This document shows, piece after piece, positions 11,705 through 59,647 of a DNA stretch of 64,000 nucleotides; the stretch's first letter is position 1, and every line of letters starts with the position of its first letter. Position numbers and translations under genes: made by a program. Location: assembly GCA_029975475.1 (NCBI GenBank), contig JARKPB010000003.1, forward strand, positions 1-64,000, given 5' to 3'. Origin of the DNA: Anaerolineaceae bacterium (GTDB taxonomy: Bacteria; Chloroflexota; Anaerolineae; Anaerolineales; Anaerolineaceae). The notes beneath the pieces are model-generated. The model saw only the letters and a program-made list of their open reading frames with translations, searched no databases and was not told where the DNA came from.

Positions 11705-12979
11705 TTAATTTGTCACAGGTTCCGAGGCCTGCGCGCAGCCATCCCCGCCAGCCCGCTGAGCAGGAAGCTTAAATTTCAACCAGACCGGCAGAATAGTGAC
11801 CAGCGAGACCGCCGCGGTGATCAGAAACGGCGCGCGGGGATTGATCGACTCCCACAACCTTGCGCCAATAGCGGGCGCGGGAAGCGAAATGACCCCCAGC
11901 GAAGTGGAGAGCAAACCGAAGGCTGTGCCGCGGACTTTTTCCGGGACAACCTTGCTGGTCAGAGAATTGTATGCCGGGCTCATGATCCCGCCCCCAACGC
12001 CAAACAAAGCCCAGGCGAGGGCATATCCCCAGAAAGACGCGGCGTTCAGAAAAACCATCAGCGCCGCGAAATCCAGCAAGAAACCCAGCGCGATGGCGGC
12101 GCGTTCGCCCTTTTTATCCGCCAGCCAGCCGCCAGGAAGGGTGACAACCATGGAAGCGACGCCCATGATGCTGGAGAGCCAGCCAATCTGGGTAACCGTT
12201 AGGCGGCCGATGTCCTCCATATAAACCGGCAGCAGCGTGAAAGACATCGAAGCGGATAGATCCCGAACACCATCCGTGATCACCAGCCAGGTCAACACAC
12301 CACCGCCCAGTACCAGCGCGAAGATGGTGCCCAGATTCGAGCGCAGACTGGTAAGGCTTAATCCTTCACCTCGAGCCGGCTGACTGCGCGCCGCCAGGCG
12401 GGCCATAGCCACGCGGATAATGGTCGCCAGAGTGTACAGCAACCCGGCGCAAACCAGCATGAAGCGAAACCCGAAATGATCGACCAGCCAACCGCCGAGC
12501 GGCGGCCCAACAATCACCACCAGCGTGTAAATCGTGTCGGTGATCGCAAATACCCGCGCCCGATTTTCTTCCGCGGACTGCTCGGCGATAAAGGCGCCAA
12601 ACGAAGGACCGACCAGCGAACGCGTTACCGCGCCGAACCCTTCCCCGACCAGGACCCACTGCCAGGAAGGCGTCAGCAGCAGACCGATATATGAAAGCAC
12701 CCCGGCCAGGCTGCCCAGCGCAATGCTGCGCAGCCGGCCGAGCGTGTCCGAAATCCATCCACCCAGAATTTGCAGGGCAAGCGGAATGATTTGCGAGAGG
12801 GTGAAGAACAACCCGACATCCAGGACGGATGCGTTGAGCCCGCGTAAATATAACGGCAAAATGGGGCCGTACATCTGCCAGGCGATGTTGGCAAGCACGA
12901 TCGCCAGCATAAACCAGCGCAGCTTTGTGTTGAGCAGCGGCGCTTTTGGCTTTGCAGTCTCAAATCCTGGCAGGCTCAT
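11705..12979 (-). CDS. MFS transporter (DHA1-like, 12 TM)
   Basis: Major facilitator membrane protein, probably a proton-driven exporter. 424 residues with two six-helix halves. The loop 2-3 signature is GGWISDTLGRLRSIALG and its C-terminal counterpart GGWLADKKGERAAIALG. The central loop (about residues 195-215) is polar. It sits 14 nt downstream of the tandem GNAT gene in the cluster that begins with the attenuator-like leader. Drug export is plausible from subfamily and context but the substrate is not readable. Only a weak ribosome site precedes the ATG at 12979. Confidence 0.88.
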   Translation of the reverse strand: MSLPGFETAKPKAPLLNTKLRWFMLAIVLANIAWQMYGPILPLYLRGLNASVLDVGLFFTLSQIIPLALQILGGWISDTLGRLRSIALGSLAGVLSYIGLLLTPSWQWVLVGEGFGAVTRSLVGPSFGAFIAEQSAEENRARVFAITDTIYTLVVIVGPPLGGWLVDHFGFRFMLVCAGLLYTLATIIRVAMARLAARSQPARGEGLSLTSLRSNLGTIFALVLGGGVLTWLVITDGVRDLSASMSFTLLPVYMEDIGRLTVTQIGWLSSIMGVASMVVTLPGGWLADKKGERAAIALGFLLDFAALMVFLNAASFWGYALAWALFGVGGGIMSPAYNSLTSKVVPEKVRGTAFGLLSTSLGVISLPAPAIGARLWESINPRAPFLITAAVSLVTILPVWLKFKLPAQRAGGDGCAQASEPVTN

Positions 12980-14069: not shown

Positions 14070-14621
14070 TCAGACGCGCCGCGAGGTTTCCCAGTCCCGG
14101 CGCAGCAGGCCCATAAAAATCAGGTCCCAGCGCCGGCCGTTGCGGTTCATCCAGTCGGAGATGCGCCCCTCTTCGATGAACCCAACTTTTTCGTAACTTT
14201 TACGGCCGCGTTCGTTGTACTCAAAATAATTCAACGAAACCCGGCGCAAGTTCAATTCAAGGAATGCAAAACGAACCACCAGATTTAAAGCTTCGGTGCC
14301 GTAGCCTTTGCCCCAGTGATCCCGTTCGCCAATGCCAATGCCAACCCAGCAGTCACCGGCAGCCCAATCGATGCCTCCTAATCCGACCGTGCCAATCACT
14401 TGATCCGCCGCGCAGTCAAAAATGGCAAATTCATATTCGCCCTTTCTGTCTTTTTCCAGCCATTCCTGCACCTGCTTGACAGAATAGCGATTCGCCGGAC
14501 CGGGATTTAGCAGCACCTGATATTCGCTGTCCTGGTCCCACTGAACGAACAATTTCGCGTCGCGTTCGGGTTCTAAGGGCTGTAGCCGAACCTTTTCGCC
14601 TTCAAAAACAGTGGATCTCAT
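14070..14621 (-). CDS. GNAT acetyltransferase (RimJ/RimL type)
   Basis: 183-residue acetyltransferase of the RimL-like group, which includes ribosomal-protein N-acetylases and antibiotic-modifying enzymes. The acetyl-CoA loop is HWGKGYGTEAL, followed by NLRRVSLNYFEYNERGRKSY and the FIEEG strand. Start at ATG 14621 (GGGAGG 5 nt upstream), overlapping the preceding GNAT stop as ATGA (14618-14621). A longer start at 14648 lacks support. Confidence 0.87.
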   Translation of the reverse strand: MRSTVFEGEKVRLQPLEPERDAKLFVQWDQDSEYQVLLNPGPANRYSVKQVQEWLEKDRKGEYEFAIFDCAADQVIGTVGLGGIDWAAGDCWVGIGIGERDHWGKGYGTEALNLVVRFAFLELNLRRVSLNYFEYNERGRKSYEKVGFIEEGRISDWMNRNGRRWDLIFMGLLRRDWETSRRV

Positions 14622-15199
14622 TCTGCCTCCCGATGATTTGCCATCCACGCGCTTCGCTGAAGCGAGAAAACCAACTCGTCCCAGTATCTGCCGTGCTGGT
14701 AATGCGCTTCCCGCCGGCGTACCTCCAGCGAAAAGCCGAAGCGTTCCAGCAAAGTTCTGAGCGCCTGATTTGCCTCGCTCAAATCGACCGTCACCAGCTC
14801 AAGATTTAGCTCGCGAAAGATGAAATTCAGCGCCAGCTGTAAGATCTCATCCCCGCAGGTTTGAACGGCGGCGTCATCTGGCAGATAAAGGCGCAGCCGG
14901 CAAAGATTGTTATTCCAGGCCACCCAGGGGATGCGGATAAATCCAACCAGACTGCCGTCTTGCTTCGCGCGCACCGCAAATTGGAACTGACGCCCATTTT
15001 CATCCGCTTCTTTAGCCTGCTTTTCATAGAGTTTTTTCAATTCAAAGGCAGACATTGGGCGGGCGGGCTCATCCAAAAGCCAACGCACGTACAGCAGGTC
15101 CTGAGTCCATGCGCTTTCGACTGCCGCGTCCTGATCCAGATCATAGGCGGTCAGGGTAAAGCGGCCGTTATCAAAGAGTTGGGTTTCGATTGATTTCAT
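14618..15199 (-). CDS. GNAT-like acetyltransferase with degenerate acetyl-CoA loop
   Basis: 193 residues resembling the RimL-type GNAT fold: the C-terminal half NLELVTVDLSEANQALRTLL and ERFGF match the helix-strand that follows the cofactor loop. However, the usual Q/R-x-x-G-x-G/A loop is replaced by DAAVQTCGDEIL, so cofactor binding may be lost or altered. AAAGGA lies about 7 nt before the ATG at 15199. Second gene of the cluster, 42 nt after the resolvase-like gene, and coupled to the next GNAT. Confidence 0.72.
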   Translation of the reverse strand: MKSIETQLFDNGRFTLTAYDLDQDAAVESAWTQDLLYVRWLLDEPARPMSAFELKKLYEKQAKEADENGRQFQFAVRAKQDGSLVGFIRIPWVAWNNNLCRLRLYLPDDAAVQTCGDEILQLALNFIFRELNLELVTVDLSEANQALRTLLERFGFSLEVRRREAHYQHGRYWDELVFSLQRSAWMANHREAE

Positions 15200-15241: not shown

Positions 15242-15721
15242 TTACCAGATCACCATATTCTGAGCCAGATGAGATCGCGGAACGAACGTGGACAGCTCAA
15301 CAGGCTCCAGAGCGGATCGCTCTTCACTGTAACTGAGCATTTTCAAACCCGGAACCAGGTTAAACAGCTCGGCCCACTCCAATCGAAATTCAGGATCAGC
15401 CAGCTGCTCGGCCGGGGACATCACCAGCACCTTCTTGACCGCGCCGTGCAGGATATCTTCCCGCAATGCGCGGAAGGCCTGGCGGCCAGAGCAGCCAGCG
15501 GGGTCTACATCCACATACACACCTACCAGGTTGCGCATCCCCAACAATTCTTCCACAACCAACAAACCGGCGTACAGGTGGCGTTTGGCGGAAACCGAAT
15601 AACCTTCCGCGTCGTTCAGGCTTCCGCAGACATACAACCCGGTTGCGTCTTCTGAACCGCGCGCCAGCAGGTTGAAATAATCTACGCGGTAAGCGCCTGA
15701 TTTCATTAATGTATCGAGCAT
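15242..15721 (-). CDS. Small protein resembling a serine-recombinase catalytic domain
   Basis: 159-residue protein, not assigned with certainty. Residues 28-110 show the pattern of a resolvase N-terminal domain: LYVCGS near the nucleophile position, EGYSVSAK, VGVYVDVDPAGCSGRQAF (compare the YvDxgxSGxxxRpaf block) and KKVLVMSPAEQL. The arginine of the classical YxRVS motif is Cys, the DRLxR arginine is absent, and no DNA-binding domain follows, so recombinase activity is unlikely. It is the first full-size gene after the leader terminators. AAAGGAGG lies 5 nt before the ATG at 15721. Confidence 0.55.
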   Translation of the reverse strand: MLDTLMKSGAYRVDYFNLLARGSEDATGLYVCGSLNDAEGYSVSAKRHLYAGLLVVEELLGMRNLVGVYVDVDPAGCSGRQAFRALREDILHGAVKKVLVMSPAEQLADPEFRLEWAELFNLVPGLKMLSYSEERSALEPVELSTFVPRSHLAQNMVIW

Positions 15722-15817: not shown

Positions 15818-15854
15818 CAAAAAAAAGCCGCGTTCCTTTCCTGGACCGTGGCTG
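15818..15854 (-). terminator. Second leader terminator (T2)
   Basis: Minus-strand hairpin AGCCACG...CGCGGCT (one A-C mismatch; an inner TCC/GGA pair is also possible), followed by TTTTTTTTG. Its 5' arm lies in CAGCCACGG (15846-15854), identical to the 5' arm of the upstream terminator T1, so T1's 3' arm could pair with it instead. Confidence 0.7.
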
Positions 15855-15871
15855 ACGGAGATACCGGTAGT

Positions 15872-15911
15872 CAAAATAAAACAGCCACGGGGCTGGAGCG
15901 CGCCGTGGCTG
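15872..15911 (-). terminator. First leader terminator (T1)
   Basis: Perfect 9-bp stem CAGCCACGG / CCGTGGCTG with a 12-nt loop, followed on the minus strand by TTTTATTTT. It begins 17 nt after the stop codon of the leader ORF at 15929. This spacing would let a ribosome paused at the stop codon mask the 5' arm. Confidence 0.85.
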
Positions 15912-15928
15912 CTGTGATTTCAGCGAAC

Positions 15929-16027
15929 CTACCTGGAAACAGGCGCACTCCGAGAAGGAGATTCAACACTGCCACCGCTGACAGCGGTGCACAGGGTGCT
16001 GACGTTAGGGATTTTGTTGAAGTCCAT
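15929..16027 (-). CDS. Leader peptide (32 aa)
   Basis: Short ORF starting MDFNKIPNVSTLC and ending SAPVSR, with AAAGGAG about 9 nt before the ATG at 16027 and a promoter about 40 nt upstream. It is followed at 17 nt by terminator T1 and then T2. The peptide is rich in Ser and Val with one Cys and has no run of a single amino acid. Its position suggests a regulatory leader peptide whose translation controls termination. A small secreted or modified peptide is the alternative, but no partner enzyme or signal sequence is visible. Confidence 0.6.
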   Translation of the reverse strand: MDFNKIPNVSTLCTAVSGGSVESPSRSAPVSR

Positions 16028-16066
16028 CTCTGTGCGCTCCTTTCTTAGAATTTTCTTAACGCTGTC

Positions 16067-16096
16067 AGTTTACCATGCTCAAGACCGGCGTGTCAA
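16067..16096 (-). promoter_or_regulatory. Promoter of the leader/GNAT-MFS cluster
   Basis: Minus strand TTGACA (16091-16096), 18-bp spacer, TAAACT (16067-16072). Predicted start near 16060, giving a leader of about 340 nt before the first large gene (ATG at 15721). Confidence 0.75.
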
Positions 16097-16216: not shown

Positions 16217-16636
16217 ATGGCCCATCTTAAAACCCCGCTTCAAGGGTATCTCGGTTACCGCGGCCGCGAGGGACAGACGGCTTTCTTGCTCCACCGCATC
16301 AGCGGAATTGGAACCGCGCTGTTCCTCACCATCCATATTCTCGACACGGCTCTGGTCTACTTTTACCCAGGGCTGTACGAGGAGGCCATCGGTATCTACC
16401 GCACAACTTTGTTCGGCATCGCCGAACTCTTCCTAGTCTTCCTGGTGATTTACCACGGAATAAACGGGCTGCGCATCGCCGGTTTTGATCTGTTTGTGCC
16501 CCAGCGCTGGAACATTCCTACCGCCCGCGGCTCTTTCCGCCTCACCCTGATCCTGACCCTGCTGCTCTGGCTTCCAGCCGCCGCGGTCATGCTCTACAAC
16601 CTGCTCCATCATAATTTCGGTCTGTTCGGAGGATAA
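16217..16636 (+). CDS. sdhC: Succinate dehydrogenase cytochrome b subunit
   Basis: Membrane anchor of complex II. 139 residues with three hydrophobic helices and histidines H26, H40 and H80. The IYHGINGLRI segment is the family signature, and one or more of these His should ligate heme b. ATG 16217 has TGGAGG 6 nt upstream; an upstream in-frame ATG at 16190 lacks a ribosome site. First gene of sdhCDAB, 3 nt before sdhD. Confidence 0.93.
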   Translation: MAHLKTPLQGYLGYRGREGQTAFLLHRISGIGTALFLTIHILDTALVYFYPGLYEEAIGIYRTTLFGIAELFLVFLVIYHGINGLRIAGFDLFVPQRWNIPTARGSFRLTLILTLLLWLPAAAVMLYNLLHHNFGLFGG

Positions 16637-16639
16637 ATC

Positions 16640-17026
16640 ATGCAGCTACCGGACGCTATTAAGGAAAAGCCAGGCCGAAATTATGAAACCATCGCCTGGA
16701 AGTGGATGCGGTATTCAGCGCTGCTCTTGATTCCACTTGTCTGGGGCCATGTGCTGCTTCAGGATATTCTGGTCGGCGTGCATCGGATCGACTTAAACTA
16801 TGTTGCCCTGCGCTGGGCAAGCCTGGGATGGCGCATTTACGACGTGCTGCTGCTCGGTTTTGCCTTTGCGCACGGAGTCAACGGGCTGCGGCAGGTCGCC
16901 CTGGATTACATCCACAATCCGCGGGCGCGCCGCGGCGTTGAATGGGGTCTGCTCATTTTCTGGCTGCTGATCACCGGAATTGGCGCGGCAGCCATCATCG
17001 GCGGGGTTTCCGCCCTGCCGGAATAA
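16640..17026 (+). CDS. sdhD: Succinate dehydrogenase hydrophobic membrane anchor
   Basis: Second membrane anchor of complex II. 128 residues, three membrane segments, with H37 and H78; FAHGVNGLRQVALDY mirrors the HGINGLR signature of SdhC. The N-terminal 20 residues are cytoplasmic and charged. It follows sdhC by 3 nt and precedes sdhA by 9 nt, so the four subunits should be co-translated. Confidence 0.92.
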   Translation: MQLPDAIKEKPGRNYETIAWKWMRYSALLLIPLVWGHVLLQDILVGVHRIDLNYVALRWASLGWRIYDVLLLGFAFAHGVNGLRQVALDYIHNPRARRGVEWGLLIFWLLITGIGAAAIIGGVSALPE

Positions 17027-17035
17027 GAGGCGCGC

Positions 17036-18832
17036 ATGGATACCCTGCATACCTATGACGTCCTGGTGATCGGCGGCGGCGGCGCCGGCTTGATGGCCGC
17101 CCTGCATGCCGCGCCGCGCGCCAGGACAGCCGTGATCAGCAAACTCTATCCGCTCCGTTCCCACACCGGCGCAGCCCAGGGCGGTATCGGCGCCGCCCTG
17201 GGTAATGTTGAAGAGGACCGCTGGGAATGGCACGCGTACGATACGGTAAAAGGCAGCGATTATCTCGGTGACCAGGACGCGATCGACTTCATGTGTAAAG
17301 AGGCGGTTCAGTCCGTTTATGACCTGGAACATTTCGGTCTACCTTTCTCGCGCACACCGGACGGGCGAATTGCCCAGCGTCCATTCGGCGGCCACACCAA
17401 TAACGAGACCGGCAAACCGGTGCGGCGGTCCTGTTACGCTGCCGACCGCACCGGGCACATGATCCTGCAGACTCTCTACCAGCAGTGTATTAAAAATGAG
17501 ATCACTTTTTACGACGAATTTCAGGTGGTGGATCTTTTGCTGGTGGACGGACGCGCTGCCGGGGTGGTTGCCGTTGAACTGGCCAGCGGCGAGCTGCACA
17601 CGTTTCGCGCCAGAGCGGTGATCTTTGCCACCGGCGGACACGGACGCATGTGGGAAATCACATCCAACGCGTATTCCTTCACCGGAGACGGTCCGGCTGT
17701 GCTGCTGCGGCGCGGGCTGCCGGTCGAAGATATGGAGTTCTTTCAATTCCACCCCACCGGTATTTACAAACTGGGGATCCTTATTACAGAAGCTGTGCGC
17801 GGCGAAGGCGGCATCCTCCTCAACAGCAAGGGGGAACGCTTCATGGAAAAGTACGCCCCAAAAATAAAAGACCTGGCGTCACGGGATGTGGTCAGCCGCG
17901 CCATTTACCTGGAGACCCGCGCCGGAAATGATATTAACGGCCAGCGGTACATGCTGCTGGACGTGCGCCCGGAAACAGTCAACCGCTACGCCGCGCTGGA
18001 CGGCCGTACCCGCCCGGACGGAAGCCCTTACGTGGTGAGCGCGGAAGAAATTCTCAGCAAAATCCCCGATATCGCCGATTTCTGCCGAACCTACCTGGGC
18101 GTGGACCCGGTCAAACAGCCCATTCCGATTCAGCCGACCGCCCATTACGCCATGGGCGGCATCCCGACCAGCATCCGCGGCGAAGTGCTGGCAGACGAGA
18201 CCGGCCGGGTCGTTCCCGGGTTATACGCGGCCGGAGAATGCGCCTGCGTCAGCGTTCACGGTGCAAACCGGCTCGGCACCAATTCACTGGTAGACCTGAT
18301 CGTCTTTGGCAAGCACGCCGGCCTGAACGCTGCCGATTTTGCCGCAAGCGCGGACCTGCCGCCGCTGCCAGAAAACCCGCAGGCTTTTGCCGGACATCAG
18401 CTGGCCGCGCTGCGCGGCGGCAGCGGCAAAGAACGCGCGGCCCAAATTGGCCGCGAAATGCGCGCGCTGATGTTTGATGAAGTCGGCGTCTTTCGCACAG
18501 AGCAGGGGCTGGAGAAGGCAGTGGAAACCCTGCAGGACCTGCGCCGCCGGTTCACAGACATCCGCGTTGGCGACGCCGGCAAAGCCTATAACACCGCCCT
18601 GTTAAACGCCTGGGAGCTGGGCAATTTACTTGACCTGGCGCTGGTGACTGCCAGGGCCGCCCTCGCGCGCCGCGAAAGCCGCGGGGCTCATGCGCGCGAT
18701 GATTACCCCGCGCGCGACGACCAGAACTGGTTGAAACATTCGCTGGCCTGGCTGGATGAAGCCGGCCAGGTGCACCTGAAGTACAAACCGGTTACCATCA
18801 CCCACTACACACCCAAAGAGCGCACTTACTAG
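17036..18832 (+). CDS. sdhA: Succinate dehydrogenase flavoprotein subunit
   Basis: Catalytic subunit oxidising succinate to fumarate. 598 residues. FAD-binding [13 protein letters not shown] is near residue 13. [10 protein letters not shown] contains His43, expected to carry covalent FAD. Substrate and FAD-site residues lie in [15 protein letters not shown] and [13 protein letters not shown]. The C-terminus (HYTPKERTY) is typical of quinone-linked SdhA. Oxidative rather than fumarate-reducing use is inferred from the operon form and cannot be proven from sequence. Confidence 0.97.
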
Positions 18833-18842
18833 CGAGGCTGGC

Positions 18843-19547
18843 ATGCGTCTTACCTTAAAAATCTTCCGCTATGACCCGAATACATCCGCGGGGCCGCATT
18901 ATGACCGCTTCCAGGTTGAGGCTGACCCCAATGACCGCGTCCTGGATCTGCTTGAAGCGGTCCGCGGCGATCAGGATGACACGCTCTCCTTTCGCCGCTC
19001 CTGCGCTCACGGCGTTTGCGGGTCGGATGCCATGCGCATTAACGGGCTCAACGCCCTGGCGTGTAAAGTGCTGGTGAAAGACTTAAACAGCGATACCATT
19101 CAGATTGAACCGCTGCTCGGTCTGCGCGTGGAAAAAGATTTGATCGTGGATATGGAACCATTTTTCGCGCATTACCGGTCCATCCTGCCGTATTTGATCA
19201 ACGATGAACCTTTACCCGAAGACGGCAAAGAAAGGCTGCAGAGCGAAGCGGAACGGGAACGATTTGACGACACGACCAAATGTATCCTCTGCGCGGCCTG
19301 CACGACCTCCTGCCCCTCCTTCTGGGCCGACGGCCAAACTATTGGCCCGGCGGCGATCGTCAACGCCCATCGGTTTATCTTTGACAGCCGCGACCGCGGC
19401 AGGTTGAAACGATTAAAGATCCTTGCCGGCCAGGCCGGGGTCTGGCGCTGCCGAACCGCTTTCAATTGTACCGAAGCCTGCCCGCGGGATATCCACATCA
19501 CCCGGGCGATCGCCGAGGTGAAGCAGGAAATCTTAAAACACAGCTGA
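18843..19547 (+). CDS. sdhB: Succinate dehydrogenase iron-sulfur subunit
   Basis: Electron-transfer subunit of complex II, 234 residues. The [2Fe-2S] site has C54, C59, D62 (Asp as third ligand position, as in E. coli) and C74. The second cluster uses CILCAACTTSCP (C147, C150, C153, C157) and the third CRTAFNCTEACP (C203, C209, C213). It ends 1 nt before the convergent lipoprotein gene and is the last gene of the operon; no terminator was recognised in the junction. Confidence 0.97.
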   Translation: MRLTLKIFRYDPNTSAGPHYDRFQVEADPNDRVLDLLEAVRGDQDDTLSFRRSCAHGVCGSDAMRINGLNALACKVLVKDLNSDTIQIEPLLGLRVEKDLIVDMEPFFAHYRSILPYLINDEPLPEDGKERLQSEAERERFDDTTKCILCAACTTSCPSFWADGQTIGPAAIVNAHRFIFDSRDRGRLKRLKILAGQAGVWRCRTAFNCTEACPRDIHITRAIAEVKQEILKHS

Positions 19548-59540: not shown

Positions 59541-59647
59541 AGTTTCGTTCGATAAAGGCAAACCCGGTGAAAACCGGGGACGCAAAGCTATGGGTCTACC
59601 GCTGGTGTAAGAATTCAGCCACGACTGCCAGGCCGCCGAAAACGAGC
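59541..59647 (+). ncRNA. c-di-GMP-I (GEMM-I) riboswitch aptamer
   Basis: GGCAAACC (59557-59564), hairpin CCCGGT-GAAA-ACCGGG with a GNRA loop, GGGACGCAAAGC and a 3' GCCAGGC segment fit GEMM-I. P1 can form between TCGTT (about 59544) and AACGA (about 59641). The base equivalent to G20 is G, which favours c-di-GMP over cGAMP. The P1 3' strand AAACGAG can alternatively pair with CTCGTTT (59655-59661), a likely switch. A terminator follows. Confidence 0.88.

Follow-up and report, generated by a model that had tools for sequence, protein, structure and literature searches.

How a short leader open reading frame (ORF) followed by an intrinsic terminator might decide whether the genes beyond it are transcribed is the question raised by a minus-strand locus in the window, that is, in the whole stretch of 64,000 nucleotides analysed here (contig JARKPB010000003.1 of an Anaerolineaceae bacterium, phylum Chloroflexota). 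An earlier note on this DNA had interpreted the locus as ribosome-controlled antitermination, in which a ribosome stalled at the end of the ORF masks the 5' arm of a first terminator (T1) and a second terminator (T2) shares that arm. In the reading preferred here, to which we assign a probability of about 0.7, the leader is a ribosome-controlled transcription attenuator composed of four mutually exclusive regions, with read-through when a ribosome is held near the leader start. To our knowledge, drug-responsive attenuators have been described gene by gene and mostly in Bacillota.

The leader and its operon

The minus-strand sequence reproduces the arrangement from which the earlier note started, namely a 32-codon ORF under its own promoter, with T1 lying 17 nt past the stop codon and T2 next. 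The elements of the leader, together with the regions (1 to 4) on which the argument below depends, are listed here; the frame-0 leaders named in the list are those relatives in which the motif is read in frame 0.

16067..16096 (-): sigma-70-type promoter TTGACA-18-TAAACT with an extended -10 TG, 10/12 consensus
16044-16037 (-): Shine-Dalgarno sequence (SD) AGAAAGGAG, overlapping region 1
16037-16032 (-): region 1, GCGCAC, complementary to region 2; 1:2 covaries in frame-0 leaders
15929..16027 (-): predicted leader ORF of 32 codons plus TAG (MDFNKIPNVSTLCTAVSGGSVESPSRSAPVSR), from ATG 16027 to TAG 15929
15940..15958 (-): conserved 19-nt motif CCTTCTCGGAGTGCGCCTG, read in two frames at different loci
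15951-15942 (-): region 2, GGAGTGCGCC, within the 19-nt motif
15882..15911 (-): predicted terminator T1, CAGCCACGG / CCGTGGCTG, a perfect 9 bp with a loop of 12; the stem covaries in relatives
15895..15904 (-): region 3, GGCGCGCTCC, the last 2 nt of the T1 5' arm plus the loop; proposed antiterminator partner of region 2
15890-15882 (-): region 4, the T1 3' arm
from 15881 (-): T-run TTTTATTTT after T1
15818..15854 (-): predicted terminator T2, weaker and mismatched, with the 5' arm CAGCCACGG as in T1, then T8

A putative leader ORF with start signals is therefore found ahead of a predicted intrinsic terminator. The 5' arms of T1 and T2 are the same 9 nt, as had been claimed, and the T1 3' arm pairs equally well with the T2 5' arm and with its own (-16.8 kcal/mol in both cases). 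These arms are not a common terminator of the genome, since the exact pattern GCCACGG-N(3-25)-CCGTGGC recurs at only one other site in its 3.15 Mb (C3:306409), which is apparently intragenic as read from the DNA. A 7-bp hairpin, CACCGCTGTCAGCGGTG, is also present within the leader ORF at 15989-15973 (-). Against Rfam 15, no family reached its gathering score with the leader, and assignment to a known Rfam family was rejected on these grounds. The presence of two terminators, coupled with weak matches to small RNA families (the best being isrD, at 21.6 bits against a cut-off of 37), could be explained by tandem constitutive terminators or a small RNA gene, in either case without translational control. 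This explanation is very improbable given that the leader ORF, the placement of its stop codon, the pairings and the cargo are all conserved and that no Rfam family reaches its cut-off.

The genes behind the leader are as follows.

15242..15721 (-): 159-aa protein, first gene behind the leader, predicted serine-recombinase-like fold
14618..15199 (-): GNAT acetyltransferase, PF13302
14070..14648 (-): GNAT acetyltransferase, PF13302
12994..14070 (-): 358-aa GNAT-domain protein, PF00583 in the C-terminal half
11705..12979 (-): MFS transporter, PF07690
10260..11686 (-): HAD hydrolase plus metallophosphoesterase

Pfam domains agree with the GNATs and the MFS gene that had previously been assigned to this operon, which probably ends at a 12-bp terminator-like site at 10232-10202. 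The 159-aa protein has no match in Pfam or NCBIfam. Its AlphaFold2 model (pLDDT 88) resembles serine-recombinase catalytic domains, the best Foldseek match being 3bvp (probability 1.00, E 5.6e-3, TM about 0.5), with nothing found by Foldseek at E 0.001 or better. By eye, what we take to be the usual position of the catalytic serine in serine recombinases is not conserved across the alignment of the family. On the other side of the leader promoter adjoins a divergent operon, 16217-19547 (+), which encodes two Sdh_cyt subunits by Pfam, followed by subunits that by eye resemble the flavoprotein and iron-sulphur subunits of succinate dehydrogenase/fumarate reductase. Elsewhere in the window, a c-di-GMP-I-GGC riboswitch was detected at 59548-59641 (+), with 73.1 bits against a cut-off of 59.

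Relatives of the leader and their distribution

A DNA search with the leader gave matches in 18 of 61 genomes, its own included, mostly over the ORF end and T1. The 159-aa protein, a query blind to the motif, returned 21 matches in 20 of 101 genomes, again including its own, and the motif with a hairpin after it was present at all 20 of these loci that have upstream DNA, in 19 with at most three mismatches and in L023 with four. The remaining match, L040, is cut by a contig end and, judged by its sequence, seems to be the gene also seen at L034; a reading of translations indicates that L040 apparently has the same HAD/metallophosphoesterase gene pair as the window. Loss of the ORF from relatives had been named beforehand as evidence against a leader of this kind, and these loci instead retain the leader ORF and terminator ahead of resistance-type genes.

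Pattern searches extended this picture. With one mismatch allowed, a 17-nt pattern of the ORF end was found in 46 of 147 genomes of the family (14 for a reversed control pattern), and a 19-nt pattern in 52 of 396 genomes of the class (control 8). Of these 52 genomes, 23 belong to the order of the window and 29 to other orders of the class, where some matches are due to chance (L149, L150, L152) and some are leaders (L148, L151, L154). The exact 21-nt form occurs in 55 stretches among 84,980 species genomes, all titled as Chloroflexota by name; named strains with a motif match are Longilinea arvoryzae, Bellilinea caldifistulae and Thermanaerothrix daxensis. A covariance model of the motif and T1, built mostly from relatives of the window leader and run with the stricter filters of Infernal so that E-values are rough, matched 92 of the 147 genomes searched in the family, and 31 of its 40 genera, at E up to 0.01. 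Across the phylum it matched 35 of 400 genomes (E up to 0.001). The order of the window accounts for 31 of these, other orders of the class for three and the rest of the phylum for one; among the three, L207 yielded no T1 and its match may consequently be false. As judged by these searches, the element is chiefly one of the class Anaerolineae, with its highest density in the order of the window. In Longilinea arvoryzae NZ_DF967972 (L089, L091) the motif occurs twice, ahead of an ABC-F gene and ahead of a GNAT gene (L009, L091).

From Chloroflexota genomes, mainly of the class Anaerolineae, 89 distinct leaders of the same design (motif plus T1) were gathered. They were drawn from 106 motif-like sites, from which L128, L150 and L152 were dropped for lacking T1; L149, second sites with three mismatches in L086 and L116, and duplicates were also removed before counting. 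Most loci were found through the motif and its conservation thus partly reflects how the loci were chosen. The motif is conserved beyond what pairing with its two partners would seem to require, with CCTT and TCG lying partly outside the pairs.

A number of features are near-constant in this collection. T1 starts 44-62 nt past the start of the motif in 86 of the 89 leaders, and its stem covaries, with 96.2% of cells paired and 6/9 pairs changed on both sides in the 65/89 leaders that were aligned. Of 84 related leaders, 80 have a promoter-like pair no more than 110 nt ahead of the leader ORF, compared with 1.4% of shuffles. The distance from leader start to motif is 42-78 nt (median 66, n=85), and the ORF spans 20-35 codons in the 83 leaders that received their frame by rule. 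In 80 of these 83 the stop codon lies 1-14 nt past the motif, the exceptions being L137 and L138 (23-26 nt) and L153, where it precedes the motif end. The gap between stop codon and T1 is 15-35 nt in 82 of the 83 (17 nt in the window), with L153 as the exception; in L068, which is cut by a contig end and which the rule put in another frame, it is 12. L153 is an outlier ABC-F locus with the motif CGTAGTGCGCC, two hairpins with GGCGCAC and an ambiguous frame.

These distances bear directly on the proposal that a ribosome which has reached the ORF end masks the 5' arm of T1. The proposal is not supported, as a gap of 15-35 nt exceeds the reach of the 3' edge of a terminating ribosome, and such a ribosome would favour T1. 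The arm shared by T1 and T2 does not provide a constant switch either, T2 being present at 54 of 88 loci and sharing at least 6 identical arm nt with T1 in 33 of these 54; on these counts, arm sharing was rejected as the main switch. The constant switch is instead a pairing between the ORF-end motif and the T1 loop, which the earlier description did not contain.

Reading frames and cargo

The motif is in frame 0 in 69 of the 89 leaders, mostly encoding P-x-R-S-A-P, and in another frame (frame 2) in 18, mostly encoding [FL]-S-E-C-A-C, with two ambiguous cases. Assignment by rule (SD of 4 or more) gave 67 frame-0 and 16 frame-2 leaders; by hand, L068 and L077 were placed in frame 0 and L009, L100 and L111 in frame 2, whilst L153 and L151 were left unassigned. 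A peptide conserved in one frame, as expected of an arrest-peptide leader, was not found, and translation of the motif in two frames at different loci argues that the RNA, rather than an arrest peptide, is the shared part.

Peptide-specific arrest (PxRSAP) at the ORF end, which on the earlier proposal would switch the terminator, is improbable in the light of these frames. It could account for P-x-R-S-A-P being common to most frame-0 leaders and for the arginine often being retained with a different Arg codon (CGN; in L034, AGG). The ORF bodies of related frame-0 leaders, with a pooled pN/pS of 0.61 over 15 non-independent pairs, also fit this proposal and are compatible with leader translation under loose constraint. 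However, the same nucleotides are read in the other frame in the leaders noted above, including 11 of 12 ABC-F leaders, and a ribosome arrested at the ORF end would occupy region 2 but leave T1 exposed, a state expected to promote termination. The arrest-peptide model was rejected because the motif is read in two frames.

Cargo was taken as the first recognisable gene within 2.6 kb, identified by tblastn in place of labels from ORF calling, which were wrong at some loci.

ABC-F: 11 frame-2, 1 ambiguous
ABC exporter: 25 frame-0
159-aa family: 18 frame-0
DrrA-like ATPase: 12 frame-0, 4 frame-2
GNAT: 11 frame-0, 1 frame-2, 1 ambiguous
MFS: 1 frame-0
None recognised: 4

L014 is DrrA-like by tblastn, but the 159-aa gene comes first by protein search (L036). 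The cargo of L078 is a pair of ABC half-exporters, and the ABC-F protein of L100 scores 470.6 bits against an NCBIfam cut-off of 380 for ribosomal-protection-like ABC-F. By predicted function, the genes behind the leaders are resistance-type. In several ABC-F leaders (L100, L108, L111, L009), a -10-like element is seen by eye near the leader ATG together with little SD, and the leader ORF may in these cases be translated from a nearly leaderless mRNA.

Pairings supported by covariation

The duplex between the motif and the T1 loop (2:3) has a mean energy of -18.0 kcal/mol in the 89 unique leaders, compared with -9.9 for shuffled loops. Swapping loops among leaders gave a worse mean in 20,000 of 20,000 permutations, relatedness being ignored, and the outcome was the same for 105 leaders (16 more loci, with L202 and repeats of earlier loci omitted) and for the 28 motif variants alone. 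Compensating changes include GGAGTTTGCC/GGCAAACTCC in L203, GGATTGC/GCAATCC in L206 (motif placed by eye), CGCAGTG/CACTGCG in L205 and, with G-U pairs, GTAATGC/GTGTTAC in L023. Complementarity and covariation thus identify 2:3 as a candidate antiterminator exclusive with T1.

Region 1 is also complementary to the motif. For this pairing (1:2) the 68 frame-0 leaders gave a mean of -13.9 kcal/mol, against -7.6 for shuffled sequences and -7.7 for the ORF body. In the covariation permutations, which covered 85 leaders (L068, L111, L151 and L153 being left out), none of 20,000 was as good for 1:2 in the frame-0 group (relatedness ignored). Between the related L014 and L037, a C/T change in the motif is matched by G/A in region 1. 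In the frame-2 group (n=17), 2:3 is strong (-18.65 versus -10.6 kcal/mol) and covariation is not significant for either pairing, with 6,243/20,000 permutations as good for 2:3 and 1,627/20,000 for 1:2. The ABC-F leaders have a weak region 1 (mean -7.9, n=11, including one whose start is mis-set). A putative role of 1:2 as an anti-antiterminator that a stalled ribosome would break is accordingly supported in frame-0 leaders, including that of the window, and weak in the ABC-F frame-2 leaders; in the unmasked fold ending at region 3, described below, 1:3 takes its place.

The scarcity of region 1 in ABC-F leaders would suit a more general sensor of slow or absent leader translation, in which the start site has no special part and 2:3 forms as long as the motif is not reached by a ribosome. 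We regard such a sensor as rather unlikely, since 1:2 is strong and covarying in the frame-0 leaders and would turn the ribosome-free state off.

Proposed mechanism

In the start-sensing attenuator that we favour, region 1 is the SD and start, region 2 the motif at the ORF end, region 3 the end of the T1 5' arm with the loop, and region 4 the T1 3' arm. With no ribosome on the leader, 1:2 would form and T1 (3:4) would terminate transcription. During free translation, a ribosome at the stop codon would cover region 2 whilst remaining clear of T1, which would again terminate. If a ribosome were instead detained at the start, or no further than roughly the fifth codon, it would cover region 1 and leave region 2 free; 2:3 would then form ahead of the synthesis of the T1 3' arm and T1 would fail. 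The freed T1 3' arm could pair with the identical T2 5' arm, weakening T2 too, and the operon would be read. A ribosome held near the leader start is therefore a more likely signal than the stall at the ORF end envisaged previously.

The dimensions of the ribosome are consistent with this scheme. Its 5' part extends about 15 nt behind the P site, such that in a terminating ribosome this part would cover most of region 2 (15951-15942). In the other direction, the 30S toeprint lies 16 nt past the A of the start codon, according to the part of the vmlR study consulted (PMC9226507), and a ribosome terminating at 15931-15929 would by this measure reach about 15918, leaving T1 (15911) free. A ribosome at the start would cover region 1 (16037-16032), with region 2 some 75 nt away and hence free. 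What the sequences show are the parts, their complementarity and covariation, the spacing, the two frames and the cargo; translation of the leader ORF, the order of events and induction are inferred, and the natural inducers would be translation inhibitors that hold ribosomes early in the ORF. The best fit would be drugs that halt ribosomes at initiation or immediately afterwards.

Calculated energies for the window leader are -15.9 (1:2), -23.0 (2:3) and -16.2 kcal/mol (1:3) for the duplexes, and -23.4 (T1) and -12.3 kcal/mol (T2) for the hairpins. The minimum-energy fold of the unmasked RNA ending at T1 contains 1:2 and T1, whereas that ending at region 3 contains 1:3 rather than 1:2. The latter fold and the stability of the 1:3 duplex would suit an arrangement in which, with the leader free, region 1 (the SD GGAG and its neighbours) serves as the antiterminator by pairing with region 3. 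Across the 68 frame-0 leaders, however, 1:3 shows no covariation (13,624 of 20,000 permutations as good); it was rejected as a conserved element despite its appearance in that fold, and such an arrangement is highly unlikely.

Removal of the first 50 nt, which mimics a ribosome at the start and hence the inducing state of the start-sensing attenuator, yields 2:3 with 10 pairs when the RNA ends at region 3, but T1 beats 2:3 once this RNA is extended to T1 or T2. The unmasked RNA through T2 folds into 2:3 together with the T1 3' arm paired to the T2 5' arm. The folds allow the start-sensor model and do not prove it or the order of events. Given these mixed folds, the model needs kinetic control, with 2:3 forming before the T1 3' arm exists; in vmlR, the antiterminator can form first because it is upstream (PMC9226507, in the part consulted).

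Comparison with known systems

The E. coli trp attenuator employs exclusive 1:2, 2:3 and 3:4 pairings, and the similar 1-2-3-4 geometry seen here might suggest an amino-acid-starvation attenuator of the trp or his type. In the present leader, in contrast, region 1 coincides with the site of ribosome entry, region 2 lies where the ORF ends, a run of regulatory codons is absent, the leader peptides share no single-residue run by eye, and the cargo is not biosynthetic; a starvation attenuator is scarcely credible on this evidence. The msrD and erm leaders contain drug-responsive ORFs that are described as relying on drug-dependent stalling with the leader peptide, whereas here the leader peptide is not the shared part.

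Closer likenesses are found in Bacillus subtilis. In the portions of its published account consulted, the vmlR leader similarly combines an anti-antiterminator, an antiterminator and a terminator with a small uORF ahead of an ABC-F resistance gene; a ribosome stalled at the start of the uORF keeps the anti-antiterminator from forming, and the inducers retapamulin and lincomycin are expected to stall ribosomes at initiation (PMC9226507). The vmlR uORF, as given in the same portions, has three codons (MIN) and lies inside SL-1 (PMC9226507), whereas the ORFs described here have 20-35 codons and region 2 at their end, so that, unlike in vmlR, a ribosome can mask region 2 as well. Several kinds of cargo, two reading frames and another phylum further distinguish the present leaders from vmlR. 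The bmrB leader of bmrCD also resembles them, having a leader ORF, a terminator, an anti-terminator and a predicted anti-anti-terminator, and its ORF must be translated for regulation, as far as the consulted part of that study describes it (PMC4191407). By the same source, bmrCD encodes paired ABC half-exporters, as at L078, and the bmrB terminator lies inside the ORF (162 bp), whereas T1 here lies 15-35 nt past the stop codon (PMC4191407); the part consulted describes no pairing of the start region for bmrB.

On the favoured model the leader works like those of vmlR and bmrBCD, yet is a separate module without an Rfam family. Among the matches listed, no published account of it was found by title or abstract in a search that left the subscription literature mostly outside.

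Significance

Whether a single Anaerolineae attenuator core senses ribosomes trapped at the leader start, as distinct from free or absent translation, and has been reused before several kinds of resistance-type genes (ABC-F, ABC exporters, DrrA-like ATPases, GNATs and MFS), with its motif read in two frames, so as to form a drug-responsive regulon across the order and beyond, is to our minds an evenly balanced proposition. One RNA core can be traced across numerous genomes and covaries strongly enough for its pairing scheme to be fixed, and it renders testable the question of whether a pairing at the start site can tell trapped ribosomes from absent ones. The position of the leader marks genes that the cell seemingly treats as belonging to ribosome protection or drug efflux, including the uncharacterised 159-aa family, and the leader provides a search model for such genes in Chloroflexota.
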